The notes under the pieces: generated by a model
What the model was told of the DNA's origin: nothing
Database searches by the model: none
The model's input: the letters and a program-made list of their open reading frames with translations, nothing else
Shown: piece after piece, positions 20,589 to 63,260 of the stretch
Numbering within the stretch: position 1 is the first letter of the stretch
Layout of the letters: each line of letters starts with the position of its first letter
Made by a program: the position numbers and the translations under genes
From: Hyalella azteca
Lineage: Eukaryota; Arthropoda; Malacostraca; Amphipoda; Hyalellidae
NCBI RefSeq assembly: GCF_000764305.2
Contig: NW_025936006.1
Span: 686,729 to 750,728, forward strand
Direction: 5' to 3'
Length of the DNA stretch: 64,000 bases

Positions 20589-21357
20589 CTAGTATGGAAT
20601 ATATCTACTTGGCGAGCCGCGACTGAATTTTTCGAGCCGTGGTTTTATGGATTTGCCAGCCGTGATTCCATTTCTACGCATAGTGGCAAACCAGAGCTTT
20701 TTTAGAATCAGTTCATTTTTTATTTCCTCATTTACTCAAGATTTAAACCTATTTCTTAAGTATGATAATGCTGGTATCCATGATACTTTACTGGTCTACT
20801 TATAGGACTCAAAAATGAACTTGAGGGTGAGTCTAAAAATCTCTCTGCTTTGCCACTATGTTTCTACGAGCCGTGATTCTATTTCACCGAGCCGTGAATT
20901 CCATATCTCGGCCATGAAAAGCCATTTACAAGGTGCGAATGCCAATTTATTTACAAAGTTTATGCACGTGTTACCCCAAATCTCTAATTTTACCCTTAAA
21001 CAGTCAAACGGCAACAATAAAATTTGTCTCTACTGTAAGTTCAGCACGTGTTAATATACAGTCTGACCGCTTTGACATGACCGCAACTATGCACGATCTT
21101 CAACAAACGTTTTGTTTATTTGTTTACATTACGATGTTTAGGTTTTTTCTGCAAGATATTTTTGGCGGAAACGGTAGAGCAATGCGGATTGCGGAAGTTG
21201 AAAATTTTATGAAATGACATGTTTGCGAAGTGCAAATCGCGATTTTTTAATCAAACAAAAATTTATGACATTCGAGCCGTGAGATTTCATACCTACTGAA
21301 ATTATATGATATTAGAGCCGCGATATTTCAGACAAAAATAGGACTTTTCCAGACTAG
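20589..21357 (+). mobile_element. Non-autonomous hAT-like element, copy A
   Basis: Flanked by perfect 8-bp direct repeats GGCCATAG (20581-20588 and 21358-21365). Ends are CTAGTATGGAA and the complement of CTAGTCTGGAA, so they form short terminal inverted repeats. The interior has repeated gagccgtga motifs. It carries a nested MITE at 20679-20860. A related copy lies inverted at 57035-58084. Confidence 0.85.
20679..20860. mobile_element. 182-bp MITE nested in hAT-like copy A
   Basis: The inverted ends are catagtggcaaa and tttgccactatg. They are flanked by perfect 8-bp target duplications TTTCTACG (20671-20678 and 20861-20868). Copy B at 57-58 kb lacks the insertion at the homologous point and so gives the empty site. 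Confidence 0.92.
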
Positions 21358-22369
21358 GGCCATAGAAGATTTACACGATTTTTGATTTTGTCCGTAGGAA
21401 AAATTGTGAGTTATAACAAACAATTTGAAATAAATTCACAGTTGAAGCAACAGAAGCATATTTCAGCAAAAAATTTTAATTTTTGACTACCGTAGGTCAA
21501 TGCCTGTGGGCTTTGAGGTGCAGAGATAGGCCTACGCAGGGGGCAACATGATTAATAATGTATTAGCTATTAGGCAAGTCAGTAATAGTAGGTAATCACT
21601 ATACCTACTCTCCAACTATAGATATAAAGCGGGCCTAGAGCCTCTTAAATAGAGGCGTTTAGTAGTAAACTCGCACGACAGAATATTTTACTTTTCTACA
21701 CAAGAAGCATAAATGAATACAATTTCACTTTTAACGAGCATAAAATCAACAGCAACTCAGCTCCAACGTGAGAATACGACGAGAAATTTTGACACAACCT
21801 TACGCCGTTACTGCTCAACCTGTAATGAAATGGCAGGCGGCGGCAGCAGAACTGCAGGAATGAGGAATCCAAAAACGAGAGCTTCGGAGTTCGGACCTTA
21901 CGAGTCGTTCAAGCAGCAGTAATAGGTCATGATCAAATTAAAATTTTGGCGTTATACCTCATTAAAAAAATTTCAAATGAAACACGAGGTTAACCGCAGG
22001 ATTCTACCAAGCCTAGGAGCACAAGTGTAATATGCAGTTGATATTTTGATATAGTGATTTTCTGGTAACAATTTATTATCGACGCATAGCACCTAAACAC
22101 GAATTGTTAAAAGGAATAGCTAAGGTATCTTAGTGCTGTCCTTCCAAATATTTGCGCTTGAAGAGTTGAAGATGTTATCGAGAAACACGTTATCTAGTAT
22201 AATATACGTCTCGGACAAAAACGCGGCCTGTCTCACGGCCGGTCTCGCGGCCGCGCTCCAGATTCAGTGTACATCGAATATCTCCCAAAGTACTGAACGT
22301 AACTCGATGAAACTTGGTACACGTATACATTATGACCTGACGGTGATGTGTAGACGTGTATAACATGCG

Positions 22370-23150
22370 AAACCACGGGAGTACGGAGCGCATTAAATTA
22401 CAAGCGACGGAACTTGAAAAGGACTTGGGTGTGAATGTGGACACAAGTTTGAAGTTTTCTCTGCATGTCGAAATTCAGGTGAACAAGGCCAACAGACTGT
22501 TAGGTCTCATCAGGAGATCATTTGTGTATCTGGACTCTCAGACTATGAAGATGCTTTTTATAGCAATTGTTCGTCCGCACTTAGAATTTGGAAATGTAAC
22601 GTGGTCGCCGTTCTTGGAAAGAGACAAAAAGCTCATTGAGAGTGTGTTACGTAGAGCAACCAAAGTAATACCAGGTTTAAAAAATCTTGAGTATGAAAGA
22701 AGACTTGAGCGGATGAAAATAACGAGTATGACGTACAGAAGAGTGAGAGGTGATATGATCGAGTGTTACAAGTACACGCACAATGTTTATAAATTGGACA
22801 ACAGTATACTCAAACTGGAAAAGAATACAAACATCAGAGGTCACCATTACAAACTGGAGAAGCAGCGTTGCAATACGAGTCTTCTTCAAAGGTTTTTCAC
22901 CCAGCGTGTGGTGGAGAGGTGGAACAGACTGCCAGCACAGGTGGTGGAGGCTCCCAGCGTCGATGCCTTTAAGAACAGACTGGACAGTGTTATGCGGGAC
23001 CTTGTCTACAGTGTAGACGAGCTTCCCACCTTTATTAGAGCTGATCAAAGGATCAGCAGTCAGTATGGACCAAGAAACGAGTACCAGGCACAACAGAATC
23101 GGCAACAGGCTGTGGAAGCCTAACATCTGATGCCGAGATCGCTATGCTAT
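22370..23150 (+). mobile_element. CR1-like LINE, 3' end of ORF2
   Basis: The plus strand encodes the C-terminal part of a CR1-type reverse transcriptase ORF: DLGVNVDTSLKFSLHV, IAIVRPHLEFGNVTWSPFL, RGDMIECYKYTHNVYKLDNS, RCNTSLLQRFFTQRVVERWN, VVEAPSVDAFKNRLDSVM. The frame is open from 22356 to the TAA at 23121. The element ends in a short gctat repeat tail, typical of CR1 3' ends. It is severely 5'-truncated. Confidence 0.9.
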
Positions 23151-43334: not shown

Positions 43335-45016
43335 TCAAGCATGGCTGGGCGCCGCACTGGTTGTGGTGCTGCTGCTGCTGGTGCTGCTGCTGCTCTTATT
43401 GCTGTATGTAGAAGCGCACATGCCTTTACAGATAATAGCTTTAAACGGGTCGTCACAAAGTTCTAAAGGAGTTCTTTTCTGTTCACTGAAAGCTATATTA
43501 TTCAACGCGGGCACTTCACTTTGCCTACCGATACTGTAACACTCGCGCCCTAATGATAATAAAGGGATAGCACTCTCGTCATCTCCACAACCACCACTTC
43601 TATGATAAACATTGCTATTCTCTGGCCGTAATGTTCTGTTGTCCTCAGATAAATAAAACATGTGATCCTCACTAGCAGCAGGATGTGAACAGGACGCTAC
43701 ATGAGACGCTCTCTTGACACTCGGACACGGGCCAAACACCGACATCTTCCGGGACTTGGACTGAGGGGGAGAACAGGACAGCGCTGCGCAATGATTATGG
43801 CTGTTGCTCTTGACGCCAGGACTAGTGCAATGCACCGCAGACACAGGAGTCTCGTTACGTTTAGACGAGGTGCTGCCCCCCGTACCGGTGCCTGTACTGG
43901 CATAACCGCTGCTGTCACCACTCTGGTGCTCGCCTTCTTCAGCCCCAGCATCCACTCCACAATTGATGGCCCCCAAATGCTCACTGTCTTCATTCCTCTC
44001 CTCTACGACAACGCCACTCACGGACAGGTTGAGGGCTTCGATGGTGTTGTGCTGATGCCCTAAAGTGAAGCCGCCTATCGTGGAGTCACTCAAGCTGCTG
44101 GTGATGGGCGGCACGGCCATGTTGCCGCTCATCGAGCGCTTGCGGCCATTCGAGAAAAGCCCCGCGCTGCTAGAGGAGCCGCCGGAGCTGTGGCGCCCTG
44201 CGTGGTTGTTTGAAGACGACGACGACAATGAAGACTGACGCGACGCCTGTAGGACGGACACAGAGGGTTGGGAGATCATGCCGTTGTGACTTCCATGTCT
44301 TTGTGGGTGCAAAGACAGACGCCTTGATAGCGACGTAGAGGTGGGAGTGGGTCGTGCCTGCATGCGGGGGTTCATTGGTTGTAAGGTGGCTGTATTGCCG
44401 CTGTCCATTGGCACGCACGTCTGCGGGGAGTCCAGGCTGGGGCTCACCAACATAGGATATCTGTTGAGCAAGTTGATGACCTGCAAGGCCGTGGGCCGCC
44501 GAGACGGGCAGATCTGCCAGCACTGCAGTAAGAGTTCTTCAAGTAAAGGGTCAAGGTTGGGGGGCACAATGAGGGTGTTCTGGTCCCTGACGTACTCCAG
44601 CACTTGGTCGTTGTTCATGTTTTGGAAGGGAATAGCCCCGAATGTAATGACCTCGTACAACAAGACGCCATAAGACCACATGTCAGACATGGACGAATAA
44701 AATCCTTCTTTAAGAGATTCGGGAGCCATCCATCTCACAGGAACCATGGCTTTGTGCTTTATTCGGTAGTAGTTAGTTTCGAAGACAGGCCGCGTCATGC
44801 CGAAGTCGCCAATCTTAACAGTTTTATTGACATTGACGAGGCAATTCCTACAAGCGAGATCTCTGTGCACGTATTTATTCTCGGCTAAATAGTTCAGGCC
44901 TTTAGCCACGTCCTTGACCATGGACGTGAGGCGGAAGTTGGAGACCTCGTCGTTGTCGTTACGAGATGAATTGTACACGAGGTTACGACGCGCCAGTAAG
45001 TACTTCTGCAGATCAC
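43335..45016 (-). CDS. VKR: VKR exon 10: kinase C-lobe and tail
   Basis: Contains YVHRDLACRNCLVNV, IGDFGMTRPVFETNYYR, MVPVRWMAPESLKEG and MWSYGVLLYEV, so it is a tyrosine kinase by its HRDLACRN loop. A tail of about 360 residues is rich in Ser, Gly and His. It ends in a Ser/Thr run and PSHA. Confidence 0.97.
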
Positions 45017-48000
45017 CTGCACACACAACAATAAGTAACATCTTCCATGGTGTTGCTGGACTCGCTTATATATTTTAGTTCGCGTGTAATGTTATAAGCT
45101 GGTAAGCCATTTAATTCATGCAAACATAAGCCCCCGTGAGACTTATTGTGTAAGTAGCAACGCTTCGAGAACGAATTAAATAATTTCGAGATTGCCGAAA
45201 AAACATGAAGTAATTATTCTCTCATTATCGTTAAATCAAAGATTTAATTTTACATACTCAAAATATGCAAGCATAAGTTAAATTCATAGATTAATACAGA
45301 TCTACTCACCATACAACATGAACTCCATGACGGCATAAATTGGTTCAGTGTCGATGCAGACGCCTATGAACCGAACCAGGTTCTCGTGCTGCAAGGTTCT
45401 CATAAGATTTGCTTCAGACAAGAATTCTTTCTTCTCAGCAATGGTCGAGTTGGGCTTCAGAGTCTTGACAGCAACGGCAATCCAGCCATGGTTTTCGATG
45501 TTACATTCACCGCCGTATATGACGCCGAACTGGCCTTCTCCAACACGCCTATTGAGGACGAGGTTGTCACGTCTAATTTGACATCCTGTGAACATGTTGA
45601 AGATATTGCACTCGCTCCACAGGGCTTGTAGCTCCTTCACTTTGCGATCATAGTTACGCTTGATGATGAAAACGCACGCGACCGGGAAAATTGCTGTGAC
45701 ACTGAAGAGTAAAAGGCACAGCATGACTATGGCATTTGTACAGGACACGCCCAAAATGAACCTGAAGCCTTCAACTACACAAGGTTCTAATTTATCCCTG
45801 GGAAATTCAGCAGGCCATGTAAGCTTCGATTTATAAAGCTCGAGTCTGTTATAAGATTCGTTTTTACCATGGACCAGATACTTGGCAACTTCAGTGTACT
45901 CGCCGCTCTGGAACTGCCGCACGATCACGTCCGTCACGCGAGAGTGACTGTCCTGGAAGCTCACTTCTCCAGACACGCCATTAAACTTCAGAGACTCCAA
46001 CTTCTTAATGATCATGTCAGCACTCTGGTCAGACCGCAAGTCCACTGTCAGAGATCGGTCTTCATTAGCCATCTTATCAAGGGCAAGAGCGAGGCTCCAG
46101 ACGGCATCGTACGTGAAGCCGGCATAGTCCGACTTGGCCGTAGAGGAGTAATTCACTTTTTTCTCGTAAGCTTCCTGCCACTCTTTGACTGTTGCGTTCC
46201 ACTGCATTACTTGGTCTGGGTCTGCGAAGTACCGATAAGAAAGAGACATGTGTCCCTCTAAAGCCTCCAGCATTTGCTCGCGGGTACACTCGGGGAGAGA
46301 CCCATCAGCGTTCTCAACGGGCATTTCGTACCAATCCCTAGAGTACCATTGCGGCAGGAACCAAACATACCCTTCTCGGGCAGTCATTCCATTATGGTAT
46401 GCTAAGCAGACGACAATGCGGGCAACATCTTCATAAAAGTCACATATAATAACAGTTGACCGCTGCTGTCTGAAGACTTCTAGATGGGACTTGAGACTAA
46501 GGGACTTGGGGTCGGCACGATATTTCCGCATAAGGAAATCCATGTGGTGCTGCTCCAACACCTCCCGCAGCGGCGTCACATACTCAGCGTAACGCTGACC
46601 TTCCTCCGTGATCGAGGCTATTCTCTTCCAGCCAAGCTCCAGGAACAGTTTCAAGAAGACGTGCCTGTAGATCTTGTTCTCGGGAATTGTTCGAAAGAAG
46701 AAAGGATACTCTGCTTGGTCAGAAAAAATTGCCCCTTCAGCCCCGTATGATATCATTGGTATTTTGAAATGGTTTTGGACGCCTGCTAAGGGTACGAGTG
46801 TATCGGAACAAGCAGGACCAATTATGCCAACAGTTTTCTTGAGGTTGTTTTTAGAGTAAGATTTGATAATACTGATAAACTGAGCCATGACCATGTCGCG
46901 CTCACACTCGTCATTGAGCGCTATGCCATTCAAGACATACTCGGGTAAGATGGACTTGTTCGAGTTGATGTGTTCAATGGCCAGAAAGAAGGCAGGGACG
47001 GTGCCAGGCGCAGCAAACCTGTTCTTGGCGAGCCAGTATGAGCTGTGCTTCGACTTGCTGGTGTCGACGCTCGTATTGTTGTTGGCAGCCACTGTCGGCT
47101 TCCGAGACTCAGAGCCTTGAGCGGTTACAGGAAAGAAGCCCAGCACGAAAAGATTCGTGGGGCGCGCCGAGAACCTCCAATTTTTCCAGTCATTCTGAGA
47201 ACAAAATAACAGTGATTTTTTACCGGAGATTAATCACTGCTTTCTATGACTGAGTGTTCACAAATCTTTGGAGCTCAATTTACCGACCTAATGCCAAAAT
47301 TTTGTATAATCTTTGGAAATATTCTTAGTGTAATTTTAGTTACTATTTGGAATGTAACGTCTAATTGAGCTGAGGCCACATATTACGCTTATATTTAAAG
47401 TACGTAAATTTTATTTCGAAAATATGATCCGAACAATAACATTTTTAAGACCATTTAAAATTTAATTTAAAAAACTGTCAACTAAGAAAATAACATCATA
47501 AGACTACTCCACTTTAAGTTTTGATCCTAAATAAACAGCTGGCTTCTCTATCATCTTATTCTATACGATACCAGTAATTCAAAATGGCCACAAGAAATAG
47601 GGAAAGCATAACTTATACCCCATAGACTAAGCAACATTCACAACTCACACAAAAAATCGTATAGAACAAGAGAAACGTGTCAGACATTTAGTCCCTTGTG
47701 CCCTATAATAGAGTGTAGAACAGAAAGGAAGACACTCATGACACTCATGACGCCGTGCCCCGTAATAGATTATAGGACAAGAACGAGGAAGACACTCATG
47801 CCCCCGTGCCCCGTAATAGATTGTAGGACAAGAACGAGGAAGACGCTCATGCCTCCGTGCCCCGTAATAGATTATAGGACAAGAAGAACGAGCAAGACAC
47901 TCATGCCCCCGTGCCCCGTAACCTACATTTTTCTGCAGCCACTCGCAGGCGATGCTGGAGTAGTTGGACCGGCGCGTCAGGTGGCGGGAATATTCGGCGA

Positions 48001-51000
48001 GCAGCGACGAGAACTCGTGCGCCCCAGGCGCCAAGCGCTCCACAACCTGCACGGCAAAGGCAGCTTATCTTCAACGCCGCAAAACCAGTATGCCGACCTA
48101 GAACAAACTTATCTGCTAAAAAATTTAGGAATTCAAAAATATTGTTAGTTTTGATTAAGTACAGCGTATCAATCTTTCAGACAAGTGGACAACTACTTTT
48201 ACCGAAGCAACCTGCCTACTTATATTAGCATTAATTGTGACAACCACAGAAATTGAAACTGGCAGTAATACACGAAGAAGAGGTTCTCAAGCGCCTCGTT
48301 GCTTTGAATCTTCCGATTCGATGTCACGTGGACTAGACGGCTTTCATCCTAAATTGCTCAAATAATTTAGCAACAGTCCTGGCCGGCCCTTTGACAGTAT
48401 TATTTCAAAAAAAACTTGCACGAATGAACTTTGCCGACCGATTGGAAAGAAGCTCAAGTAACACCATTGTTCAAAAACGGTAACAAAAGTAGTCTCGGTA
48501 ACTATCGCCCTGTCAGTACTGACAAGTGTTGTTTGTAAGCTAATGGAATCTGTTGTGAGGGATAGGATTATCTATCACTTGACTGTTCACCATCTCTTAT
48601 CAGATTGTCAATATGGTTTTATTGCCGGCAGATCCTGCACCACTAACTTAGTATCTACGTTGAACGATTGGACTCGTCTGCTGGACAAAAGGGAGCCAGT
48701 GGATGCATAGTACCTCGATTTTGCCAAAGCATTTGACAGCGTTCCGCATGAGCGGCTGTTGCGTAAAGTGAAATCTTTCGGAATTGAGGGAAACGTACTC
48801 CAATGGATCAGAGATTTTCTAGTAGGTAGACGACAACGTGTCAATATTAACGGAACCGTGTCAGACTGGGCATCAGCTGTCTCTTATACACATCTAGATG
48901 TGTATAAGAGACAGGAGTGGCGCAGACAGCATCAGGCACCCACCAGTATTGGATGCAAAGAGAGTGGCGCAGACAGCGTCAGGGCCAGCGCAGCGTGCTG
49001 GAGTAAACATGCTGCCCACGCACCAAGACTCGCTGCAGTGCGGCTTGCCTTCATTGTTGTAGAACAATGCAGAAATATTGGCTAGTTCTGTGAATAAAAA
49101 ATACCATGTTTAACATAGGACTATATAAGAGAAGATATGAATTCATGGGCATTGGGAAATCTGGACAGCTTCATAAAATTTATTAATCAGACATTTTGTG
49201 ATAATTTTTTGACAACTGGATGATGAATTCGGTATGAAATTCAACATGAAACATCAACAAGAATCTTTCTACTACATATAAATCTGTTAGAAAATGATTA
49301 ATAAAATATGTCAAGGGATGCCAATACAACCTTCTTTGGAACGGTAAAAGGTTTTGAGGGCGGGATTAATCTTGTTGGTGTAGACACGCCAGTGTTCCAG
49401 CAGCGCAGGATCTTTGTTCTCTATCATTTCAGCCGGCAGGAACCACCCAAACCTTCCTCCTGTCCCTAGATACCTGCAAAATATTATAACTTTGAATATT
49501 ATTCAGAACTGAACAGGTTTTTGAAAGCCATGGCTAGTTTTCCAGTGATATTCTGAATACTGCCTCATCTCAAAACAAAAACTCTACTCCAACGGTCACA
49601 AAATTTTGCAATTAAAGTATTGCATTTACCTGACGGTGTTATATTGGTAAAGTATTGTATTTACCTGACGGTGTTGTATTGGTCAAGTATTGTATTTACC
49701 TGACGGTGTTATATTGGTCAAGTATTGTATTTACCTGACGGTGTTGTATTGGTCAAGTATTGTATTTACCTGACGGTGTTGTATTGGTCAAGTATTGTAT
49801 TTACCTGACGGTGTTGTATTGGTCAAGTATTGTATTTACCTGACGGTGTTGTATTGGTCAAGTATTGTATTCACCTGACGGTGTTATATTGGTAAAGTAT
49901 TGTATTTCCCTGACGGTGTTATATTGGTAAAGTATTGTATTTACCTGACGGTGTTGTATTGGTCAAGTATTGTATTCACCTGACGGTGTTGTATTGTTCA
50001 AGTATTTTATTTACCTGACGGTGTTGTATTGGTCAAGTATTCCCACATGGGCAGGACTGCTCCATGCAAGAAGATCCATCATGAGAGCACGCGAGTTGCC
50101 GGGGCGCAAGGCCTGGTATTTCTCCATGCATGGCCTGCATCACAAGGGAAAATAAACAAACAAAAATCTAACGATTAATTAATTACATCATTGTGTCAAA
50201 AGTTTGAACTCTTGAACATAAATGTTCAACCTTCCAAGTTTTCAATGAAACCAATAGCACACAAATATCATACGTGCATAGACGGGCAATTTGTAATACA
50301 CCCTAAAGTCATGCTGCTGCACACTGATATATTTATTGAGCTCAAAAAACATGGTTAACATTTGAAAAGATCAAACTTATTGGCCACACATTGTGCTGTA
50401 GAGGTGTAAGCAATATTTAATTGATATATTTAGCTTACTAAACAAGTAAAATTTCTCAAGTCAACTAAGCTAGCAAAAGATGTTAATTATTTATTTTCAT
50501 GAAGCTTTTGAGTAGCATTTAATCACCCCATTAAATGAAAAATTATCCACTAAATGATATGATTTCAATAAATCAATACATGCAAGCGGCACTACTACAT
50601 TTGTCAATGGTTCAAATAAGCTAATCGGTGGAGCATGAGCAACTGCGACAGAACAACTAGCAAGGTAAACAGCTACTGGGACACTGCCACTGACTGGCGT
50701 TGTAGGGGCGAGTTGAGTAGCACAGACAGACTCGAGTTGTCTGTCTCATTGCAGGTGAAGACCTCAACATCTCGGTACCCCATCATCTGGCGCAGCAACA
50801 CTGCAACCACCTGCACACAACAGTACATTCTTAGACTCAAATACAACTACATGTTGGCATCCATAAATCTCGAAATATGATGGTTGCGCCATGTCAGTCA
50901 ACCCACTACTTGCTGTTGGCAGTGCATCGAGTTGCTCGCCTTGAAGATGACGCTTGTCTTCAAGCCTCCAACTGTGGCTCCTTGCTACTTCTGACTCCCT

Positions 51001-54000
51001 CCCAAATGGCTCATCAACAACTGTATCCCAGGTTTGGAGGTTGATATTTGCTGTTCCCAGGATGCACCTGCAGACATTTAAAATGCAATGCCAGGCAGCC
51101 AGTTGGGCTCACACCAGTGGCTAGTTCTCCAAAGAGCAAGTACTTGGTAATTCCACTGTCCCGCATGTGATGCACATGATGGAGTCAAAGGACACAACGT
51201 TGGCACAGGAGGAGATGCAGAGGCTCATTGTGCCAGCTTGTTCCAAAACACATGTGTTTGTGACCCCGTCTTCCCATGTGACTTTGAGGATGCAGCAGAG
51301 CAGGGAAGTTGGAAGCACTCTACCCTATGTGGTATAATTAGGAACATGGTTTCCCATTCTACCATACGTAGTTTTCCTTTTTACTGTACCTGGTATAGGT
51401 TTCACTGCCATGCAGAAGAGTACTAAGGATGCATGTCTGGTACACTTTAAGCTTATAGTGTAGATCATCACCTGCTCGTTTGACCACACCCTTTTGTTCA
51501 GTCTGGCCATCACACCTGCCACTTAGGTATCTTCCTGTCAATCTCGCTATCAAGGGACAGGTTGTTGCTGATGGTGGAGCCCTAGTAGGTGAAATTTGAG
51601 CTGTTCACCAATTTGCAACTTTGAGTTGTTCACCGTCAATAGTGATAGATGGGGATGCTATAACGTCCTGACCCGTGACCTTGAGTCTCCTGATGCTGAT
51701 TGTCAGGCTGAACTCCCTGTAGGTGTGGGCAAGCATCCCATCAGCATTTAAAGATCCTCTTTAGTATGGGAAGAATCATCAGCAAAATGCAACTCTCTGA
51801 TGAGGACACTGTGGACCTTTGTTTTTGCTTCTATACAAGCCAAGTTGAAAAGTTTACCATTGCTTCTGGTATGTAGATGGATGCCCTCAGTGGAGTCTCT
51901 AAACGCAAACTTGAGCAACAGTAAGAAAAAGCTGCCAAAGAGAGTAGAGGCCAATACACAGCTCTACTTAACTCTGCTTTTGATACTAAAAAGTGCTGAG
52001 GTATTGACATCGTAGCTGACTACACCCTGCATGTCATTGTGGATTGTGGAAAGAGATAATGCTGAGAAGACAAGGGGGGTAACCTATCTTCACCAGAAAC
52101 AAGAACAGACCTCCCCAGCTGACAAGATTTAATTCTTTTTTAAGGTCAGTAAATGCAATCTACATAAGCCTCTGTTGCTCAGGCTCTCGACATTTCTCAT
52201 GCAGCGGCGCAAGGAGAAAATCATGTCTGCTTTGGACCTCAGGGCTCTGCAACCACATTTGAATTCCGGGTAAACGATATCAGCGAGGGCTTGTTGGCGG
52301 CTGACTGCCGCATGGGCAAAGACCTTGCCCACAATGCTGAGAGTGATATTCCTCTATCCCTCTGTAGTTGTTGTAGTCTCTATGATCTCCTTTATTTTTG
52401 TACAAAATGATAATCTTGGTGTTGCGCATGTCTTATAATGATTAATATAATATTAAAATATACCATAAAACAAAGTAATAAATTATCTTGCATGTGTAAC
52501 AATAGAAACACAAGAATATTAATGAGTGACCTCCGAGAGCAGCTGTTGACTAGGCCACTCTGAGGCAACAATTGTGAGAGGCTGGTGACCCTTGTCCGTG
52601 TAGAGCAAATGTTTTGGTGCTCTCGAGCCTGAAAACAAAATAAGCCCAAATAATAAATTTTAGTAACTACAATAAAAACACAAGCAGTAAACTCAATTTC
52701 AAGTTTATCCAAGATAAAGTTAAAGGCTCTAGCTGGAGTCTCAAGGGAATGCAAGGAGCCCTAAAACTGACACATCAATATACATTACTCAGTAATTAAA
52801 TATCTGTCTCCAAGAATTTGGGCCATTTGAGAGCCTTAGCAATGTAAACAGATTATATTCCACATACACACGATAATTGTCCTAAAAAGAAGCAAGAAAG
52901 AATGATTTCTTTAAACTAGCCTAAAGAATGAGCCATTAAAATTTAATGCAATATAAATAAGAGCAGAAGAATAATCTCAGATGCTATGGAGTATAGACTT
53001 ACCACCAATGCCATCACAAAATTCAGGGGATCTGATGTATGAAGAATGTACAGGTAACAGAAGCTGCAATAATGTTATTACAGCAATCATGAGCCATACT
53101 GAAGAGTGATGAAGGGAAGGAAGTGCATTACTTAGGACACTTTTGTATAAGCCAAGTTTTGAGCCATTATTGCTTGTCTTGATAAAGCAGCAGCAAAAAT
53201 AGCAGCAGCTCCTCAGCAAACAAAGCAACACCATCACCGCTTTACCATCCTGCAACAAAAATAAGCAGCTTTTACTTCAAACAATTTACTGCCTTCATGT
53301 GAAATTGGCCACACTTTGGTTACTTGTCCATCAATTACTAGAATATTTACTCACATGAGGTTTTCATGACTGATTGCAAAATTTTGTCTTTCTTTGGGTG
53401 TAAGTAAGTATGTTATGTTATTCCAAGCCGAATTTTTGTTTTATAATTTATGTTCATAAATTATTTTGATCATTAATGATTATCTATGGAATTTAGGAAA
53501 CATGATTTTTTAATAATATAAATTGATTATATTCACAATAAATTTAACATTTTGGGCACTTTACCTTCTAATTGTTCCTACAAATAATGTAACTTTTAAT
53601 AGTTTGGTTAAAATATGTCCAGGTCTCAAGAATAAATCACTTTCAATTCTTTGCAAAACATAAAAACACTTTGATTTGTGACTTGCCACACTAAGGCAAA
53701 CTTGGGTCTCATTATCATGGAAGCACATTAATCATATAATTTGTAGAATTTCACAAGCCCTTCCTGGAAATCATAAATTATCAATGTTTACAGTAATTTA
53801 AAATTTGTCACTTTGCAGCTGGAAAATTTCAGTACTAGCAAGTAGGAAAATTATAATTTAGTGCCATAGCCATAGTGCAACTATATAATTAATAAAAGAA
53901 ATGGCATTTGAGATTTTGGACCAATCAATGCTGCTTTAGGGGCCAGTCCACAGCAGTGATAGCACACTAGCACCACCTCTCAAGACACTACTGCTTTTGA

Positions 54001-57000
54001 CAGTGCCACAGTTTTTGATGACAGTTTGAATGACAGTGCCGACAAGGAGTGCTAACAAATCGACCGAAATTTACATTTTTTCGAATGAAAGGATTTATTG
54101 AAGTCAGGATTTGAGTCATTAAATGCCAAAAAAATATTAGGAATTTATATTTATGCATGGATTAAAAAGTGATCTGTGATCTGACTCCAAAAGATCTTGT
54201 TATAATAAGTAGTCAGTCATCATTTGTCAAGGATGAAAAACTGATTTACACTAATTATTTCATTATTTCACTCAAATTTTCAAGCTCCCCAAAGGTTGAC
54301 CATTGAGTTTATTTTGTCACTAGCAATGCTAAAATTTTGCCAAAGTGAAAATCAATTTCGCCTGGAAATGAGAGCTACAGACGGTAAACTAGCTACGAAA
54401 CGCGCTAGACTCAAAAATTTTAGAACTCACAAATCTATCAAACATAATTTCAACCACAAAAACTCCAAAACACAACGAAATCAAATCTCACATGGTCCGT
54501 TTACCCTATTACGTTCTGCATGTTCTTTTCATTTTGGCAGGAGGCAGGAGCATTGAAGTCCTACTGTGGAGTGTAGATTGCGGAAGTTGAAAATTTTATT
54601 AACCAACATGTTTGCAAAGTGCAAACCGCAATTTTTTCAATCAAACAAAAATTTATGACATTAGAGGCTGGCAACCTCTAATAGGCATATAGTGGCAAAC
54701 CAGAGCTTTTTTTGGAATCAGTTCATTTTTAATTTCCTCAGTAACTCAAGATTTAAACCAATTTCTTAAGTATGATAATGCTGGTATCCATGATACTTTA
54801 CTCAGTTTACTGGTCTACTTATAAGACTCAAAAATGAACTGGAGGGAGAATCTAAAAAATTTTCTGCTTTGCCACTATGGACTCACTCAGGCTGCCATAG
54901 TGGCAATTCTGGCAAAGCAGAGTTTTTTAGACTCTTCCTCAAGTTCATTTTTGAGTCCTATAAGTAGACCAGTAAAGTATCCTGGATACCAGGCATTATT
55001 ACCAGCATCATCAATCATCATACATAAGAAATTGGTTTAAATTTTGGGTAAATGATGAAATTAAAAATGAACTGATTCTAAAAAATCTCAGGTTTGTCAG
55101 TTGTCACTATGATTAGAGCTGCAAGATTTCATACCTACTGAAGTGAAATTATATATTAGACTTAGAGCCAGTGTGGAATTCTGTATAGGTAATATATTCT
55201 CATGTCAATATAAGAAAATGTATCGAAATACCAACCCTACCACCGCGTTACACCACCTTCCACTGCAATGAAAATTGACAAACTGAGCTCATTTGAAAAT
55301 CGCGCGTGGTTTGAAATCCAATCCCGTGTTGCCAATGACTAATCAAGTTAACTAGTCATTTATCTGTAGGCTATCGGACACAGTTTTGCAATGAATACGT
55401 TCTAGAATAAAAAAAAAACACATCCAGCTTCCTAAAAAATTCTCACAATTGGACATCACCCACAAAGTTTTCGATTTCACACAAAATTATGAGATAAACT
55501 TCAACTCTTTCACTGCATACATTCACATGGAGTTTTCTGTTTACTTCTCACAAGACGGTGTCACACACTTATGTTTTGGTTGTGTCTAGTTTGATTTCAC
55601 ATTAGACTTGATTCACATTCCATTCTGAGATTTAAATGATTGAAAGTTTTTTTTAAATTATAAAAACCTATTTATACGTTCCAGATTTGAATTTTTTGCC
55701 CTATTATGTTGAATTTATCTTGATAAATTGACTTCAAATTCTGAATGATTTCGTCTGCCATCCCGCATTTTCAAACGTTTTGTGTCTTTTAGAAAATTTT
55801 TGTTGTTTAATATGGGAAACTATTTCATTATAGAAAACATAGAGCACGTACGGTATAGTGCATTAATAATACAATTTAATTCAATAAAAATTAATTTTTA
55901 TTTAAAAAATATAATCAGATTTTTAATTCAACATTTTTCTAATAGAATTTAATTCTACAGCATGTACCATCTAGTGTATTAAATAATAAATTTTTATTTA
56001 GTAAAATTTAATTTTATTTAATTTTTTAATTTAATTTAATTCTACAGCTTCAACCGGTAAAAATGAGCATCATAGGAATCAAAGTAAAACGGTCATTCAT
56101 ACATCACAAATTGAATGACATTGGATGGATTTGATAGGTATTTTATTAATCCTGTTTATATATATAAGAACGGAAATGACGCTTCTATTTCAGAATGATA
56201 ATGGAAATGTTTCTACTATTTCAGAAACTTTTCTTGAATACACTTCCAAAAACTAAAGTTCTGTATTCAATGGAGTCTTTGAAATGACAAAATCATTTAA
56301 TTTAAAATTTTTAGCTATAAGAGTAAGATTGTCATTTGTCAATATGAGGAGCATTCATTCATCATTCCTGAGGAGCTGTAAGAAAAAATTCTTTGTTTTT
56401 TATGTAAAAGGATGTTTTTCAATTAAAAGAAATGCAATAATTGATTTTTGGAAATACGATGTTAAAATTAACGATCCGTATTAGAATTCAAAGTCGTTTT
56501 CATTCCTTTGATCAGAAGTTTTCGTTCGTTTGATCAGAAGTTTTTGTTAATTTGATCAGAAGTTTTTGTTTGTTTGATCAGAAACAGAAAAAGTTTTTGT
56601 TTGTTTGATCAGAAACAACATAATTATTCATTCTCTTGCATTAAGTATACAAACGATTAGTTAATTCCTAATTCGTATACAACCGTATACCTACGAATTA
56701 AGTAACGATTGATCATCCCGCTAGATCACCGTTAGCGGAAAAGAAGCAATTCAATTCAGTAGCACGTTAGCCCACGTGTTATGAAGTTCGTCTTGTCTGA
56801 ACTCTGAATTGCGTGTTTAGTGTGCATGATGAAAAACTCTGCCTAATGATTACTTAATCAAGTTAATGAAGTTTAGTTCATTGCAGTCAACTTAAGAGAC
56901 AAATTTTCAACTAGGCTAACTAATACTTTTTTATACCTAAGTCTAATTTTAATTGTTGAGTGATAGGTGCAGGTTTACTGTTAGAGCCACGATATTTCAG

Positions 57001-60000
57001 AAAAAATAGGACTTTTCCAGCCCTGCACTTAGTGCAGGGCTGGAAAAGTCCTATTTTGTCCATGGTCAGGAAGATGTGCCAGGTGCGCGGGAATTTATAT
57101 TGTCATTTTAACAACCTGCGCGGTGCGCCGTACTATGCCGGTAAAAAAATGCGCCGTGCGCCGACAGTGCCGTACTTTTAGAAAGCTAAAATAGTTTAAA
57201 TATGGACGCGCGGCAATGCAAATTATGTAATCACACTGTACCGTACACACAAACGTGTATCCGCACTGTGTTGTGGTTGGATACGAGTTAACTAGATTGC
57301 TACCGCGTCAACTCAGGACTCAGGTTCTAAGAGTCAGCACAGTAATGAATATTGATTCATAGATCACAATTCAATCGGACATGAATTACAGAACTAAAGA
57401 AGGCAACATGGCTTTAGATGTGCCATCGGTGCCTTCCAATGAATGACTGGACTGGTTGCGGCAAGTAGGATTACTAGGGTATGAACCTGTATGTCAACAG
57501 TATGATCCTGCATGCCAATGTTATGACTACATTTACATTACTGACATCCTCCCGGCCGGCAAAATCGACACGATCAATACCTAATAACAATGCGCGTAAA
57601 TGGACTATACAAATTAGGTCAATATGGCATAATTACAGAATGTAATTATGCTATGTGATACATAATATGAATATATATATTTGCAAGATAAGTCAATGGT
57701 CTGTCGTTTATTTTTGCTTCATTTTAGCAATAATGGTTTCCAAATNTTTGTTGAAGATCGCGCATAGTTGCGGGCATGTCAAAGCGGTCAGACTGCAGAC
57801 TGCTATTAAAACATGCTCAACTTACAGTAAAGACAATTTTTAATGTTGCCATTTGACTGTTTTAGGGTATAATTAGAGATTTGGGGTAACACGTGCATGG
57901 AGAATCATGAGAATGTAAATAAATTCCCGCCTCGTAAATGGCTTTTCATGGCTGAGATATGGAATTCACGGCTTGGTGAAATGGATCACGGCTCAAAGAA
58001 ATGGAATCACGACTGGCAAATCCATAAAACCACGGCTCAAAAAAATCCAGTTGCGGCTTGCCAAGTAGATATATTCCATGCCTGACTTAGTGCACTATAG
58101 TAGCTTTTAGTAGGAAATATAATAATAATGTATAATGGCAGTTTCCAATCATTATATAAAAAATTAATGACGTACCTAATAACTACGAGTCTACGAGGCT
58201 ATTTTGATCACGCTAGAGCCTGGACAGTTGGGTTCAGTTGAAATTTGTATAAAAAATGGCAAAGGCCGGCGCCCGGCGGCATAAGGCAAACCGCTAACGG
58301 TATGACGTCAGCTCGTAAGCTAAGGCGTACCTATGGCGTAACACCTATGAAGTCTAATCTAATATGCCAACTGCCAAACCGTTGTGAGTAAAAAACACCA
58401 ATTTATGAAATTTAATTGGTTCGGTTCTGGCATTGATCATTTAAAAACTTAGCATGGACTTGAAATATTGTTGTTTCACTCATCATCACGCCCACGGAAC
58501 GGCAGCAAAGCAAATCATGAAGTATGTTCAGACTTCAGAGTATCAGAGACTACCTATTACGCATGAGCCGATTTTTTTTTTTTTTTATAGTTGGTTTTGG
58601 AGGCTTCCAGTGCTTGTGCACTGCCCAGCCTGGTCTCTGTCACTCTTTTGATGAAAGACTATGTACAACGTACTCCAATGGATCAGAGATTTTCTAGTAG
58701 GTAGACGACAACGTGTCAATATTAACGGAACCGTGTCAGACTGGGCATCAGTGCGCAGTGGCGTGCCACAAGGAAACGTTCTTGGGCCTATTTTGTTCGT
58801 TGCTTTTATAAGTGATCTGCCAGAAGCAGTGTCCAGCGTGTGCTCCATGTATGCCGACGACACAAAAGTTTATAATTCAATGAAGGATGCGTCAAATAAA
58901 GCGCAACTACAAGACGATCTTGACAGTTTAGTTAACTGGGCTGATACGTGGAAGCTGCGGTTTAATGCTGACAAGTTTGAAGTACTTCACCTCGGAAAGA
59001 ACAATGAACAGCAACTTGAAAGAGACAAAAACTTAGTAGAGAGTGTTCTAAGACATGCAACAAGGATAATTTAGGGCTTGAAGGGTAAGTGTTATTTAGG
59101 AAGATTAGATTATTAAGCTCCCAAGCATCTGTATTCGACGACTGCATGGTGACCTCATTGACGTATACAAGTGTACTAATCGTTTGTACAAGATCAAAGA
59201 AAGATTACTTTAATATGAAACAAGAACAACACCAGGGGCCACGGCTATAAACTAAAAAAAGTGCGTTGCAACTCATCCAAGCGACAACATTTCTTCTCGC
59301 TTCGAGTCACCGACATGTGGAACAGCTTCCCTGGTGACATCGTTGGCGCTTCGAGTATGAACGCGTTCAAGAACAGACTAGATAAATCTATGGAGAAACG
59401 TTTGTTCACTTGAAATGCAAAGCACCATACAGACCTGGTAGAAGTCTAGTAGCTATTTCAAACTAACGTCAATTTTGAAGAGATCCAGTCAAAGGACTGG
59501 TTTTCAGATCTGCCACATCAGGCCTATTCTTCAGCGCCGACATCACTATGATATTATAGTTGTGCGTGAAGCACTATATGTTTATTCGAAGTGGCAGTGA
59601 TTGTGCGCGCTGTTAATGTGTCTCACTTTGTATACAGATTCAGCGTAGACCTCCAGGCGGGTGCTGATGTATTTATTGAAGCGATGCAGCTCGTAGTGGC
59701 ACAGGTAGTCGGGAGTGCTCGTCTGCAGTGGATATAGCTATTAATTTGCAAGACTACTTAATAAATATACATTATGCAGCCTACTAATTGGTAAGGCTAC
59801 TTAGCAAATATACAGCCTGCTAATTGGTAAGAATACTCGGCAAGGGCAAATGTACAGCCTACTAACTGGTAAGAATACTTAGCAAATATACAGCCTACTA
59901 ATTAGTAAGACTGCTCAGCAAATATACAGCCTTAACATAAATGTCATCACATTGTTTTTAAAAACACATTTCCAACGTTAATATTAGAGAACGTGATGTT

Positions 60001-60544
60001 TTGCTGTTTATGAATATTTGAGTTGAACCACGTCTTTCTTCAGTGCAGATGACACGTACAGAAATTCGCAGTTGATTATGAATGGAAAAATTCATGCTTA
60101 GATTTAAATAATGAAGCTGAAAGTAGAAAGCTGTAGTCAAACCTAGCATATAAGTAATACAATCAGCAGGAAATTATAATAATAATTCAGGCATTGACAG
60201 AATAGTACGGGAAAACCAAACAGGCCTTCAATAATAAAAAATGAAACTATCCACAAACTTATTAATTGCATGATGGAAAAAATCTCGGCAAGTGAAGCTT
60301 TGGATGAATGCAAGGAAGACCAACTGAAGTCAAACCTCAAGTTTGCAGGAAGGGAACGAGATGCTGGTGAAGTTGAACTCCTGCAGCAGCGCGGACGGGT
60401 GGTAGTGGAAGACGAGGACGGAGCGGTTGCCCGAGATACGCAGGTTGTTCCTCAGAAAGTCAGGGGTGAGGTTGTCACCCAGGTACGCAACTTGCACATA
60501 TAGTCCCTCCTCCTCAATCTGCTTGTGAAGAAAACCCCCTGTGT
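43335..60544 (-). CDS. VKR: Venus kinase receptor (receptor tyrosine kinase), exons complete but scrambled in this assembly
   Basis: Coding order by phase and domain: 53090-53003, 52628-52531, 50810-50695, 50134-50015, 49473-49331, 60544-60336, 59722-59627, 48046-47927, 47194-45310, 45016-43335. Every junction then matches in phase, giving 1518 residues from the ATG at 53090. Layout: signal peptide; residues about 45-335 resemble a type-2 periplasmic (OpuAC-like) binding fold; about 390-790 is a Venus flytrap ANF-receptor fold (KTVGIIGPACSD, PMISYGAEGAIFS, FRTIPEN); TM near 810-840; tyrosine kinase from GEGQFG at 882 with VAVK lysine 907, HRDLACRN at 1009 and DFG at 1029; a long Ser/Thr-rich tail follows. 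VKRs are invertebrate receptors; in mosquito one mediates ovary ecdysteroidogenic hormone signalling. The kinase looks catalytically intact. A LINE lies in one intron. Confidence 0.93.
45310..47194 (-). CDS. VKR: VKR exon 9: Venus flytrap, TM and kinase N-lobe
   Basis: 1885-nt exon. Contains the ANF-receptor ligand-binding fold, the TM stretch AIVMLCLLLFSVTAIFPVAC, and kinase motifs RRVGEGQFGVIYGGE, IAVAVKTLKPNS and EANLMRTLQHENLVRFIGVC. Confidence 0.97.
47700..47920 (-). repeat. About 51-bp minisatellite beside the VKR exon 8 donor
   Basis: Four copies of a unit containing cccgtgccccgtaatagatt. The first unit starts 6 bp inside the intron (gtaggtTACGGGGCACGG). Confidence 0.9.
47927..48046 (-). 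CDS. VKR: VKR exon 8, end of OpuAC-like module
   Basis: Exactly 40 codons, phase 0 at both ends, donor gtaggt. Encodes VVERLAPGAHEFSSLLAEYS and SSIACEWLQKN, followed in the next exon by NDWKNW. This A-x-x-W-L-x-x-N...W pattern is the usual end of OpuAC domains. Confidence 0.9.
48283..48876 (+). mobile_element. CR1-like LINE, 5' part of reverse transcriptase, broken at an assembly junction
   Basis: Decayed plus-strand reading SLGNYRPVS, QYGFIAGRSCTTNLVSTLND, YLDFAKAFDSVPHERLLRKV, VLQWIRDFLVGRRQRVNING. It stops abruptly at the adapter at 48877. The next reverse transcriptase motifs appear at 58752. Confidence 0.88.
48877..48914. other. Nextera/Tn5 mate-pair junction adapter (artefact)
   Basis: CTGTCTCTTATACACATCT (48877-48895) is directly followed by AGATGTGTATAAGAGACAG (48896-48914). 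These are the two Tn5 mosaic ends joined head to head, as left by circularised Nextera mate-pair libraries. Translated, it gives the well-known contaminant peptide VSYTHLDVYKRQ. This is not biological sequence. Confidence 0.98.
48915..49005 (+). repeat. Minisatellite fragment after the adapter
   Basis: About two copies of a unit starting gagtggcgcagacagc. It resembles the unit at 61165-61325, gagtggcacatacagc, which supports a misplaced join. Confidence 0.7.
49331..49473 (-). CDS. VKR: VKR exon 5
   Basis: Encodes YLGTGGRFGWFLPAEMIENK and HWRVYTNKINPALKTFYRSK. Ends phase 1 (GAA G), which fits the exon at 60544 and not the next exon in the assembly (48046, phase 0). Confidence 0.92.
49615..50035 (-). 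repeat. VKR: 35-bp minisatellite copying the VKR exon 4 boundary
   Basis: About 11-12 copies. On the minus strand each contains TTGACCAATACAACACCGTC plus AG, then gtaaatacaatac: exon end plus donor. Minor variants change one or two bases per copy. Confidence 0.95.
50015..50134 (-). CDS. VKR: VKR exon 4
   Basis: Encodes CMEKYQALRPGNSRALMMDL and AWSSPAHVGILDQYNTV. Its last 22 bases and the donor are copied about 11 times in the minisatellite next to it. Confidence 0.92.
50695..50810 (-). CDS. VKR: VKR exon 3
   Basis: Encodes VVAVLLRQMMGYRDVEVFTC, then NETDNSSLSVLLNSPLQR. The donor gtcagt is chosen because only it gives phase 2. Confidence 0.85.
51050..52430 (-). mobile_element. Degraded LINE reverse transcriptase in a VKR intron
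   Basis: Minus-strand fragments in several frames: DMIFSLRRCMRN, LFGSFFLLLLKFAFRDSTEG, LHTRSNGKLFNLACIEAKTK, LIRELHFADDS (catalytic FADD), MARLNKRVWSN and YQTCILSTLLHGSETYT. The order fits a non-LTR endonuclease/reverse transcriptase ORF2 read right to left. Many frameshifts. Confidence 0.85.
52531..52628 (-). CDS. VKR: VKR exon 2, start of OpuAC-like module
   Basis: Encodes HQPLTIVASEWPSQQLLSE, like the first strand and helix of betaine-binding proteins. Phase 1 in, phase 0 out. Confidence 0.9.
53003..53249 (-). CDS. VKR: VKR first coding exon with signal peptide
   Basis: Donor gtaagt, phase 1. The in-frame ATG at 53090 gives MIAVITLLQLLLPVHSS, a good signal peptide. A second in-frame ATG at 53234 would add 48 residues beginning MVLLCLLRSC, also hydrophobic. 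I prefer 53090. An acceptor-like ttgttgcag at 53250 suggests a 5' UTR exon upstream. Confidence 0.75.
53260..54290. other. VKR: VKR upstream region, nothing recognised
   Basis: AT-rich. It should contain the VKR 5' UTR and promoter; no element could be defined. Confidence 0.35.
54560..55170 (+). mobile_element. hAT-like copy C with two MITEs inserted as a palindrome
   Basis: Segments at 54580-54665 (ttgcggaagttgaaaatttt) and 55115-55160 (agatttcatacctactgaa) match copy A at 21190-21300. Between them, 54687-54887 and 54893-55110 are inverted copies of the MITE that sits at 20679-20860, giving a large palindrome with a 5-bp centre. Confidence 0.8.
55200..56490. other. Very AT-rich stretch, no gene
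   Basis: Contains runs of ttaattttatttaa-type sequence at 55860-56045. A 66-codon ORF at 56284 is probably chance. Confidence 0.4.
56505..56615 (+). repeat. About 20-bp tandem repeat
   Basis: Five copies of tttgatcagaagtttttgtt with small changes. Confidence 0.85.
57003..57057. repeat. Perfect palindrome with 26-bp arms
   Basis: Arms 57003-57028 and 57032-57057 with a 3-bp tta centre. It is formed by two hAT-like ends facing outwards from a shared point; the right half is the end of copy B. Confidence 0.92.
57035..58084 (-). mobile_element. Non-autonomous hAT-like element, copy B
   Basis: Flanked by perfect 8-bp direct repeats ACTTAGTG (57027-57034 and 58085-58092). Ends are CAGGGCTGGAA and the complement of CAGGCATGGAA. 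The right 340 bp are the inverted equivalent of copy A (gccgtgaattcc/gagccgtga motifs). It carries an unknown base at 57746. Confidence 0.88.
58667..59450 (+). mobile_element. CR1-like LINE, 3' part, displaced partner of the 48.3-kb fragment
   Basis: Reads VRSGVPQGNVLGPILFVAFI, SMYADDTKVYNSMKDASN and LVNWADTWKLRFNADKFEVL, then decays into RCNSSKRQHFFSLRVTDMWN-like sequence. The first 85 bp (58667-58751) are identical to 48792-48876, so both pieces come from one LINE copy. Confidence 0.88.
59627..59722 (-). CDS. VKR: VKR exon 7, displaced in this assembly
   Basis: Encodes TSTPDYLCHYELHRFNKYIS and TRLEVYAESVYK, phase 0 at both ends, acceptor ccactgcag, donor gtgaga. It joins in frame to VVERLAPGAHEF of the exon at 48046. 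Confidence 0.88.
59745..59940 (-). repeat. About 39-bp minisatellite near the VKR exon 7 acceptor
   Basis: About five copies of a unit containing cagcctactaattggtaaga. It begins roughly 20-40 bp upstream of the acceptor. Confidence 0.85.
60336..60544 (-). CDS. VKR: VKR exon 6, displaced in this assembly
   Basis: Encodes DTGGFLHKQIEEEGLYVQVA, then NRSVLVFHYHPSALLQEFNF. Starts phase 1 and ends phase 0. The FHYHPSALL segment matches the middle-to-late part of the OpuAC-like fold, so it belongs after exon 5. Confidence 0.88.
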
Positions 60545-61164
60545 CTGTAAGCAATGCAAATTCAAATTTAAATTCATACAATTTGTGCGAGCGGTAAACC
60601 GGCAGCATCTGATAGTTTTCATAGGTGGGTAGCTTAGAGTACATAAATGTTTTGAACGGCTAAAATTAGGAATAGAAGGTACAATATGAGCTTTGGTTAA
60701 ATTTATTCCTGAAGTGAAAGTTATTAGCCATCAATAAATACACAAGAACAAATTTTGGCAAATTAATTTGGGAATTTAGTCGAGTAGTCGCCAAGCAGCA
60801 GTGACTTCGGTGGTGTTAACAGTGATGTAGTGATAGTTCTTTTCACAATTCCCCTACGAGGCTCAATGAGTTTGCCACTAAGTGTAAGAAGATACCAAGT
60901 CCTAGGTAATGTTAAAACAAAAGCAAATAACATGTTGGTCGTTTCTAATTAAATGTCAGCATAAGGGTCGAGGCGATCCTCGAGGGATAGCTTCAACTAT
61001 ACACAGGAAGGTAAGACAGGAAAACTATCCAACTGCCAACCAATCATTATCACTTATTTAGCTTAAGCCTCCGATTGATACACAATTAAATAGGAAAAGA
61101 TGTACGGGCAGCAGCTTTCACAAAGAGCCGCTCTGAAAGAAGCCTTCCTGATGTAGCTTCGGAA

Positions 61165-61325
61165 GTAACTGGTGAGAACTGGCTACAGAGTGGCACATAC
61201 AGCGCCAGGCACTCGCCACTACTGGCTACAGAGTGGCACATACAGCGCCAGGCACTCGCCACTACTGGCTACAGAGTGGCACACACAGCGTCAGCCACTC
61301 GCCACTACTGGCTACAGAGTGGCAC
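61165..61325 (+). repeat. 43-bp minisatellite
   Basis: Three to four copies of a unit containing ctggctacagagtggcacat. Similar to the repeat just after the adapter at 48915. Confidence 0.9.
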
Positions 61326-62399
61326 AAGATGAAGGTACTACAAACAAGGCCCACAGAAAACAATTATCGAATGCCAAGTCTCCTCAATTGTCAGGGAAAA
61401 CGATCAATTAGCATCGAGTACCCCAAGAACAGAGCAGCTAATAACACACGTCCGCCCGACAGCAAAGCCCGTAACGGAATCCCAGGTATGTCTGTCACCG
61501 GTCAAAGCTGACGAAATACTCGCATGAGCCGATGAGGTCCTATTACGCAGATACATCTTATTTTCTTTTCAACTTCGGAACACGCGGTCACATCAAAACA
61601 CAGCTCTTTTGTAACAGAAATCTATTTTAACCAAAATAATTGTTCTACTCAAGTTCTACATGTGAAAGTTTTTCAATACCTATACGAATATTTTCAGGAA
61701 AATGACTTCATTTGTAAAACAAATTCATTAGTCCTGTTTGCAAGGAATTCATATACATAACATGATAGGCCATACAGTGATATAAAATTAGATGCGGCAA
61801 CTTTTATAGGATTTTAGATCAGGGCTTCTTGAATCTTGATAAAGAAGGTAGGTTTAGGTCAACACTTTAGTACGTATGACGGGATACTTATTTCGTGGTA
61901 TATATTTTTTAACTGTACGTTCTGTTAATCCTGTGCTAGCTTAGTGACTAGTCAATTGTTGGTAACATTTATTTTATGACTGCAATATGGAATCTCATTT
62001 AACTGTGTTAACTATTATTTTGTTAACTAAAGGGTTTAATTTATTAATGACTAAGCAATGCGTAAACGAATATTTATTTCGTGACCGTAATATGGAATCT
62101 CGTCTAGCTGTCAAAGTCTAGCCACTGTCAAAGTTATGAATAACTCTGTTCTGGGTTGACAGTCATAACCTTAAAAGGATCTGTCTGATCTACTGTTCCG
62201 TTGTAGATAAACCTGAGGGGTTTGTGTTCGTTTATAATTGTCCGAATAACATATTAAATATTCATCGGCCAGGAAAGGATAATGACAAGACGTGTAACTA
62301 AGCGTAAGTATTGAAGATAGGTTCACGGGATACACTAGATAGAAGTTACAGGATCAAAGCATAGTATGTGCAGTAATTTTGGAGATAGAGTATACGACA

Positions 62400-62870
62400 C
62401 TGCGTGTTGGCTGAGTGCCGGAGTCTAGAGTTAACTGCATGACTGCAGCTGAAGGCTGTCTGCCTAAGACAGCTGTGCGCTCGGAAGTTGTGTGTGCTCA
62501 GTGTTGCTGGGTTGGGGTGACACGATTTCGACTCGAAAGAGGCAGAACCAGATTTGGGCTTCCAAGAATAAACTCCACCGCAGTTCTGTGCATAACTCTT
62601 AATAAGTTCCTCTAACGGACTAATAACGGCGTGGGTGGGGTTTTGGAGAGTTCGAGGTTCTGGCTGTGTTGGGCGGTTAACAGCCGTTCAATTCGCACCC
62701 TCAAGGTAGAGGCTAATAACCTCTGCGCTCGAGTAAATTGTCAGCGGCTTATTGGAGGCTCGTACCCTTCAATGGTCGTGCTTTAGAGGCGTAACTGCCA
62801 CCCCGGTTCTGTGTTCTGGGCAGTGCATTAGGGCTCGAACCCCTGATCATTGCGCCGGTTGTCGGCATTG
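62400..62870. other. Possible LTR-retrotransposon remnant
   Basis: G+C-rich relative to the flanks, with an aagaataaactcc polyadenylation-like signal at 62568 and ggttcgtaccc/ggctcgtaccc motifs downstream. No gag or pol sequence was found, so this is only a suggestion. Confidence 0.2.
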
Positions 62871-63260
62871 TGGTGCGGCTCGCACCCGTATCATTGCTGT
62901 CCACTCCTGTAAGGTTGTCAGTTTTGTGGTGTGGCTTGTACCCGTATCCTTGCTGTCCACTCCTGTAAGGTCGTCAGTTTTGTGGTGCGGCTCGTACCCG
63001 TATCCTTGCTATCCACTCCTGTGAGGTTGTCAGTTTTGTGGTGCGGTTCGTACCCGTATCCTTGCTCTCCACGCCTGTAAGATCGTCAGTTTTGTGGTGC
63101 GGCTCGNAGTTTTGTGGTGCGGCTCGTACCCGTATCCTTGCTGTCCGTTCCTGCGAGGTTGTCAGTTTTGTGGTGCGGCTCGTACCCGTATCCTTGCTGT
63201 CCATTCCTGTGAGGTCGTTAGTTTTGTGGTGCGGCTCGTACCCGTATCCTTGCTGTCTGC
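62870..63260 (+). repeat. About 57-bp minisatellite interrupted by one N
   Basis: Six to seven copies of a unit containing gttttgtggtgcggctcgta. At 63107 a single N separates two identical 19-bp stretches, so the array length is an assembly estimate. Confidence 0.92.

Follow-up and report, generated by a model that had tools for sequence, protein, structure and literature searches.

A 64,000-nucleotide stretch of Hyalella azteca contig NW_025936006.1 (64 kb; hereafter the window) contains a single Venus kinase receptor (VKR) gene, which lies on the minus strand at positions 43335-53234 and to which two further exons, eA and eB, belong that are placed upstream of its first exon. We conclude that this exon order is almost certainly the product of a misassembly and not a feature of the animal. 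In the animal there would be one normal VKR gene, with its exons collinear in the order e1-e2-e3-e4-e5-e6-eA-eB-e7-e8-e9 (Table 1). As an artefact, the disorder teaches nothing new about how genes are built, and its biological interest is low; the error accounts for wrong public gene models. The case also illustrates that a misassembly can be revealed without reads when coding phase is combined with a split repeat and a remaining adapter.

Reading frame and exon order of the receptor gene

The gene is an ordinary VKR. The Venus flytrap domain of the ANF-receptor kind (PF01094) has a clear match in e8 (E 1.1e-47), and the tyrosine kinase domain (PF07714) is divided between the end of e8 (profile positions 2-83, E 1.5e-19) and e9 (profile positions 89-256, E 4e-56). 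Between flytrap and kinase, a hydrophobic stretch that is a candidate transmembrane helix can be read directly in the e8 translation. The kinase is close to that of the insulin receptor, and a profile built from 35 relatives, with the protein itself excluded, has among its best matches in the Protein Data Bank (PDB) 'Venus kinase receptor 2' (7zvs) and the insulin and IGF1 receptors. The amino-acid-binding residues of the VKR flytrap are described in a passage of PMC3703292. Among the matches listed, at least two VKR-like proteins are found in Trinorchestia (P0001 and P0112, with 71% and 36% identity to the query) and at least two in Procambarus (P0005 and P0040, with 45% and 37% identity). 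Judged by sequence, these pairs suggest that there are two paralogues in these crustaceans.

When the exons are joined in the corrected order, they give 1,620 open codons with no stop; if the e3 donor after 50695 is used instead, the protein has 1,614 residues. Every internal exon is preceded by AG and followed by GT, and phases are given here and in Table 1 as start-to-end. In the present order the only phase break is that between e6 and e7, and direct joining of e6 to e7, leaving out eA and eB, produces 79 internal stops. Start phase 1 is the only open one for eA, and start phase 2 the only open one for e5. The exon eB is open in start phase 0 and also in start phase 2, and e7 can be read in start phase 0 or 1, of which phase 0 alone also fits e8. 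There are 72 ways of inserting eA and eB into the nine-exon chain, and the only in-phase insertion in which the two are adjacent and in order is e6-eA-eB-e7.

The original prediction, which was made from the sequence alone, held that phase reveals the true order. The exons and phases that it listed are borne out by open frames and AG/GT boundaries, and the frame is indeed restored, but three of the 72 insertions are in phase throughout, and the public protein model P0121, described below, keeps the frame in another way, through an acceptor located 17 nt ahead of e7. Phase alone is therefore good evidence but no proof. Two frame breaks had been proposed for the assembled order. The first, between 49331 and 48046, exists, but its junction is e6|e7, since e6 lies between these positions. 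With phase 1-1, e6 is undetectable by the frame argument, and the proposed junction from 49331 to 60544 overlooked this 144-nt exon (49087-48944); it should be replaced by 49331-49087 plus 48944-60544, while the junctions 60336-59722 and 59627-48046 are kept in the corrected order. For the second break, between 59627 and 52628, the arithmetic was correct, but e1 (53234-53003), with its own ATG and an end in phase 1, comes before 52628 and is in frame with it. Because e1 sits between eB and 52628, there is a single broken real junction rather than a pair.

The order of the exons was compared with that in homologous proteins, taking the best 120 of 946 and counting a pair of exons when both matched at E<=0.01. 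This alignment with VKR homologues had been proposed as a check, and every matched pair of the tested exons was found in the corrected order. The exon eA followed e5 in 56/56 and e6 in 61/61 homologues, and preceded eB in 23/23, e7 in 12/12 and e8 in 111/111. Likewise, eB preceded e7 in 2/2 and e8 in 23/23, and e5 preceded e6 in 37/37 and e8 in 62/62. All five of e5, e6, eA, eB and e8 were matched in 14 homologues, and they were collinear in each of the 14. Short exons frequently fell below the threshold, eB being matched in 23/120 and e7 in 14/120. A match to eA was present in 111 of the 120 homologues; the nine without one include P0002, an H. azteca protein to which we return below. Eight of the 120 homologues were chosen for scoring, and in all 8 the corrected order outscored both alternatives by 225-472 points. 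Omission of eA and eB shortens the protein, and a lower score is thus expected for that version, whereas the present-order version has an identical residue content. The alignment with Hirondellea gigas P0003 is gapless at e6|eA and eB|e7, and at eA|eB it has a single gap of one residue.

The adapter, a probably split retroelement and the putative misplaced piece

A mate-pair junction joins both ends of one circularised fragment. The gap between e6 and e7 contains, 29 nt past the end of e6, an exact 38-nt palindrome that occurs once in the window and consists of CTGTCTCTTATACACATCT followed by its reverse complement; we take it to be the Nextera mate-pair junction adapter, which was not removed from the assembly. 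The same 38 letters appear as a ring adapter for circularising fragments in a passage of PMC7357533. That an adapter lies in this very gap was part of the original prediction and proved right. The H. azteca genome belongs to the i5k programme, as does a thrips assembly. For the latter, a passage of PMC7570057 describes mate pairs of 8-10 kb that were circularised by blunt-end ligation, naming no adapter, as well as gap filling.

Two parts of a reverse-transcriptase element, both degenerate with stops and frame changes, lie antisense to the gene, one of them ending at the adapter and the other in the piece that carries eA and eB. The 5' part matches the RVT_1 profile at positions 14-59 (17.6 bits, cut-off 29.6) and 73-107 (29.9 bits) of 205, and the 3' part matches it at positions 100-194 of 205 (53 bits). 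The 85 nt that terminate exactly at the adapter are identical to 58667-58751 at 85/85 positions. Two old copies would agree to this degree only by coincidence, and it is simpler to suppose that one copy was cut in two. The sole further DNA match to the element in the window is weak, with 69% over 170 columns, which is too little to measure the divergence of the family. If there is a single copy, the intron between eB and e7 would be approximately 1.7 kb long (960 + 745 nt). Elsewhere in the window, at 22356-23123 of the plus strand, an open reading frame of 255 amino acids resembles by eye the C-terminal portion of the element found in the VKR intron and has no Pfam match at E<=0.01.

A single N is present at 57746 and another at 63107, all other positions of the window being without N. 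We infer that both are scaffold joins and that they mark the limits and the extent of a misplaced contig, which holds eA, eB and the 3' part of the retroelement. At 63107 the N falls inside a 56-nt tandem array, and the two sides have an unmerged 19-nt overlap; this join is not unique evidence of adjacency. At 57746 an overlap between the two sides was looked for and none was found.

A further link between e6 and the misplaced piece comes from a 43-nt minisatellite upstream of eA. The end of e6 and its donor are partly repeated ahead of the adapter, and the end of e6 matches 61231-61294 with 76% identity over 68 columns (E 6e-9). As a control, both strands of the window were sampled in 171-nt stretches at steps of 85 nt. 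The score of the minisatellite, 57, was the best outside the locus, and the best unrelated sampled stretch scored 24. The kinship of the e6 end with the array before eA ties e6 to the eA region without the use of coding phase. In the misplaced piece, 1.8 kb of other sequence precedes the array, so that the layout of the e6-eA intron cannot be given base by base.

Tandem arrays at or adjoining 5' splice sites were also observed at e4 (49615-50041), e6 (48990-48915) and e7 (47740-47921). In the e4 array, the exon end and donor are repeated 12 times, with GT in 11/12, and translation beyond the first donor meets a stop codon immediately. Judged by titles and the openings of abstracts, none of the papers listed in a literature search clearly dealt with minisatellites located at 5' splice sites; one of them, PMC3045353, concerns the promoter and first intron of a fish gene.

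One mechanism that would join these observations is that the piece bearing eA and eB (about 57747-63106) was omitted from its place between e6 and e7 during assembly and was set upstream of e1. The resulting hole would then have been closed through the untrimmed adapter at 48877-48914, which linked the e6 intron to the retroelement in the intron before e7. Such a false bridge is possible because one flank of the adapter is repetitive and many reads have the adapter in common. Annotation of the broken sequence would finally have yielded two wrong public models. The central claim of the original prediction, that the adapter gap is the proper place of the two exons now found upstream, is thus strongly supported by phase, homologue order, adapter, split retroelement and minisatellite, and the exact junctions that it gave have been amended as described above.

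Table 1. Exons of the VKR gene and other features at the locus, with positions in the window
Feature	Position	Strand	Description
e1	53003..53234	-	Start Met and, by eye, hydrophobic N-terminal region; phase 0-1; donor GTAAGT; start same as in P0121
e2	52531..52628	-	Phase 1-0; AG/GT, open; present in P0121
e3	50677..50810	-	Phase 0-2; last 18 nt absent from P0121 (donor after 50695), phase unchanged
e4	50015..50134	-	Phase 2-2; open frame; present in P0121
e5 (GWFLPAEM)	49331..49473	-	Phase 2-1; present in P0121; matches 62/120 homologues at E<=0.01
e6 (144 nt)	48944..49087	-	Phase 1-1; present in P0121; matches 65/120 homologues at E<=0.01
eA (FHYHPSALL), misplaced	60336..60544	-	Phase 1-0; proper place between e6 and eB
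eB, misplaced	59627..59722	-	Phase 0-0; proper place between eA and e7
e7	47927..48046	-	Phase 0-0; present in P0121
e8	45310..47194	-	Flytrap, hydrophobic stretch, start of kinase; phase 0-1
e9	43335..45016	-	Rest of tyrosine kinase, C-terminal tail, stop; starts in phase 1
Circularisation adapter, 38-nt palindrome	48877..48914		Exact, single occurrence in window; left in assembly
Retroelement, 5' part, degenerate	48090..48876	+	RVT_1; antisense to gene; left boundary approximate
85-nt duplicate of 58667-58751	48792..48876	+	85/85 identical; terminates exactly at adapter
Retroelement, 3' part	58667..59620	+	RVT_1; antisense to gene; right boundary approximate
Putative misplaced contig	57747..63106		Carries eA, eB and 3' part of retroelement; single N on each side
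43-nt minisatellite	61178..61326		Upstream of eA; related to e6 end and donor

Public gene models and alternative explanations

Among the matches listed, P0002 and P0121 are the sole H. azteca proteins of this gene. P0002, annotated as 'atrial natriuretic peptide receptor 1 [Hyalella azteca]' and 1,088 amino acids long, begins inside e8 and is 100% identical to the e8-e9 translation over all 1,088 residues. P0121, 'uncharacterized protein LOC108676309 [Hyalella azteca]', has 332 amino acids; it contains e1-e6 and e7, skips eA and eB, and ends after e7. Its bridge from e6 to e7 consists of six residues, AAFAVQ, encoded for the most part immediately before e7. Both models are probably on the same scaffold as the window. 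They are pieces of one receptor gene, between which approximately 102 residues are lost.

Several observations weigh against the reconstruction proposed here. One is P0121 itself, which joins e6 to e7 in frame through the upstream acceptor. Moreover, no H. azteca protein with eA or eB was found among the matches listed (the best 120 of 946, plus two single-match protein searches). Trinorchestia P0001 has 17 additional residues between e6 and eA, and direct homologue support for eB adjoining e7 is thin, at two of two. The flanks of the adapter, 48915 and 58751, lie 9,837 nt apart in a fitting orientation in the present order, and do not do so in the corrected order. This 9.8-kb fit could be explained by another copy of the retroelement, by a chimeric circle, or by different reads that met in the shared adapter. 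Finally, the piece of the element at 58667 runs on into other sequence (58666-57747), which requires either a second false join or a separate 5'-truncated copy. The stretch 57747-58666 is repetitive, as it resembles 20594-20675 (93%) and 20861-21107 (83%) within the window. The one-copy and two-copy versions alike place the misplaced piece between e6 and e7.

Two of these observations, the exact join in P0121 with its frame kept and the fit of the adapter flanks to a 9.8-kb mate pair, are what one would expect if the present order were true and the public model right, that is, if e6 were spliced 17 nt upstream of e7 and eA and eB were a relic or an unrelated duplicate. We nevertheless give this alternative a very slim chance. 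The foreign adapter in the intron would have to be irrelevant, and the split retroelement would be left unexplained. The receptor would also drop 305 nt, the eA part of which matches 111/120 homologues, and would gain AAFAVQ, which is absent from both amphipod homologues aligned across the junction. In addition, P0121 stops after e7, so e8 and e9 would be left as a separate gene without an N-terminal part.

The chance is slimmer still that the exons were truly scrambled in a recent rearrangement, with the mRNA restored by trans-splicing, or that the locus is a broken pseudogene. Scrambling would agree with the functional look of the locus, in which all exons are intact and the internal splice sites are GT/AG, and the present order is the order of the assembly. 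On the other hand, the adapter is located at the breakpoint, the retroelement is divided into two parts whose perfect 85-nt overlap ends exactly at the adapter, and single-N joins are present on both sides of the misplaced piece. A pseudogene was rejected in view of the corrected frame, which runs for 1,620 codons with no internal stop or frameshift, and by the GT/AG internal splice sites. Just as improbable is a version in which the VKR exons are genuinely out of order and the full-length mRNA is put together from separate transcripts, with the adapter as no more than an unrelated gap-closing error that fell in the same intron.

Apart from the receptor, an open reading frame at 7697-8074 of the minus strand has a PAP2 match (E 3e-11) and may be part of a lipid phosphate phosphatase gene, as one of its exons.

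The region before the flytrap and comparison with known systems

Arthropod VKRs have a conserved region of roughly 350 residues before the flytrap (e2-e7 of the window gene, 52628-47927, minus strand), which scores as a distant OpuAC. The original prediction had expected the linear order of an OpuAC-like fold in the corrected protein. The window protein itself reaches 16.4 bits with the OpuAC profile (PF04069), below the cut-off of 21.2, and the match covers profile positions 2-38 in e2-e3. Four relatives, P0024, P0067, P0118 and P0120, pass the cut-off with 24.8-28.6 bits at profile positions 155-257; their match spans the stretch from within eA to e7, which is the order that had been expected. 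An OpuAC match at E<=0.01 was seen in 6/35 relatives. Sequence comparison thus weakly supports the idea that the region is an OpuAC substrate-binding domain.

Structural searches bear on this question to a limited degree. The pre-flytrap region of the window protein gave no PDB sequence match up to E=1. The predicted structure of P0050, which is without the start of the region, has a mean pLDDT (per-residue confidence score) of 72.8, and the listed matches of the fold searches with this model were all flytrap and kinase domains, so that the N-terminal domain was barely probed. In a literature search on VKR with OpuAC or glycine betaine, the VKR paper among the matches listed has neither term. 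A second binding module in arthropod VKRs is worth testing.

The window gene can be compared with arthropod VKRs, with which it has in common the Venus flytrap (PF01094), the hydrophobic stretch and the tyrosine kinase (PF07714). The VKR family papers, in the passages available (PMC3703292, PMC2680970), mention one flytrap only, and the conserved pre-flytrap region was not met there. Trinorchestia longiramus P0001 has 71% identity to the window protein over 90% of the query region. No difference was found in the gene itself; it is the order in the assembly and the public models that differ. With regard to the assembly, a scaffolding error that misplaces a small contig offers one parallel, and here the short piece bounded by single Ns adjoins its gap rather than filling it. 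The other parallel is a mate-pair junction adapter that stayed untrimmed in a draft assembly. The locus is like it in having the exact 38-nt palindrome at a false join, and unlike what would be expected from it in that a mate pair would account for the flanks if the present order is taken and not if the corrected one is.

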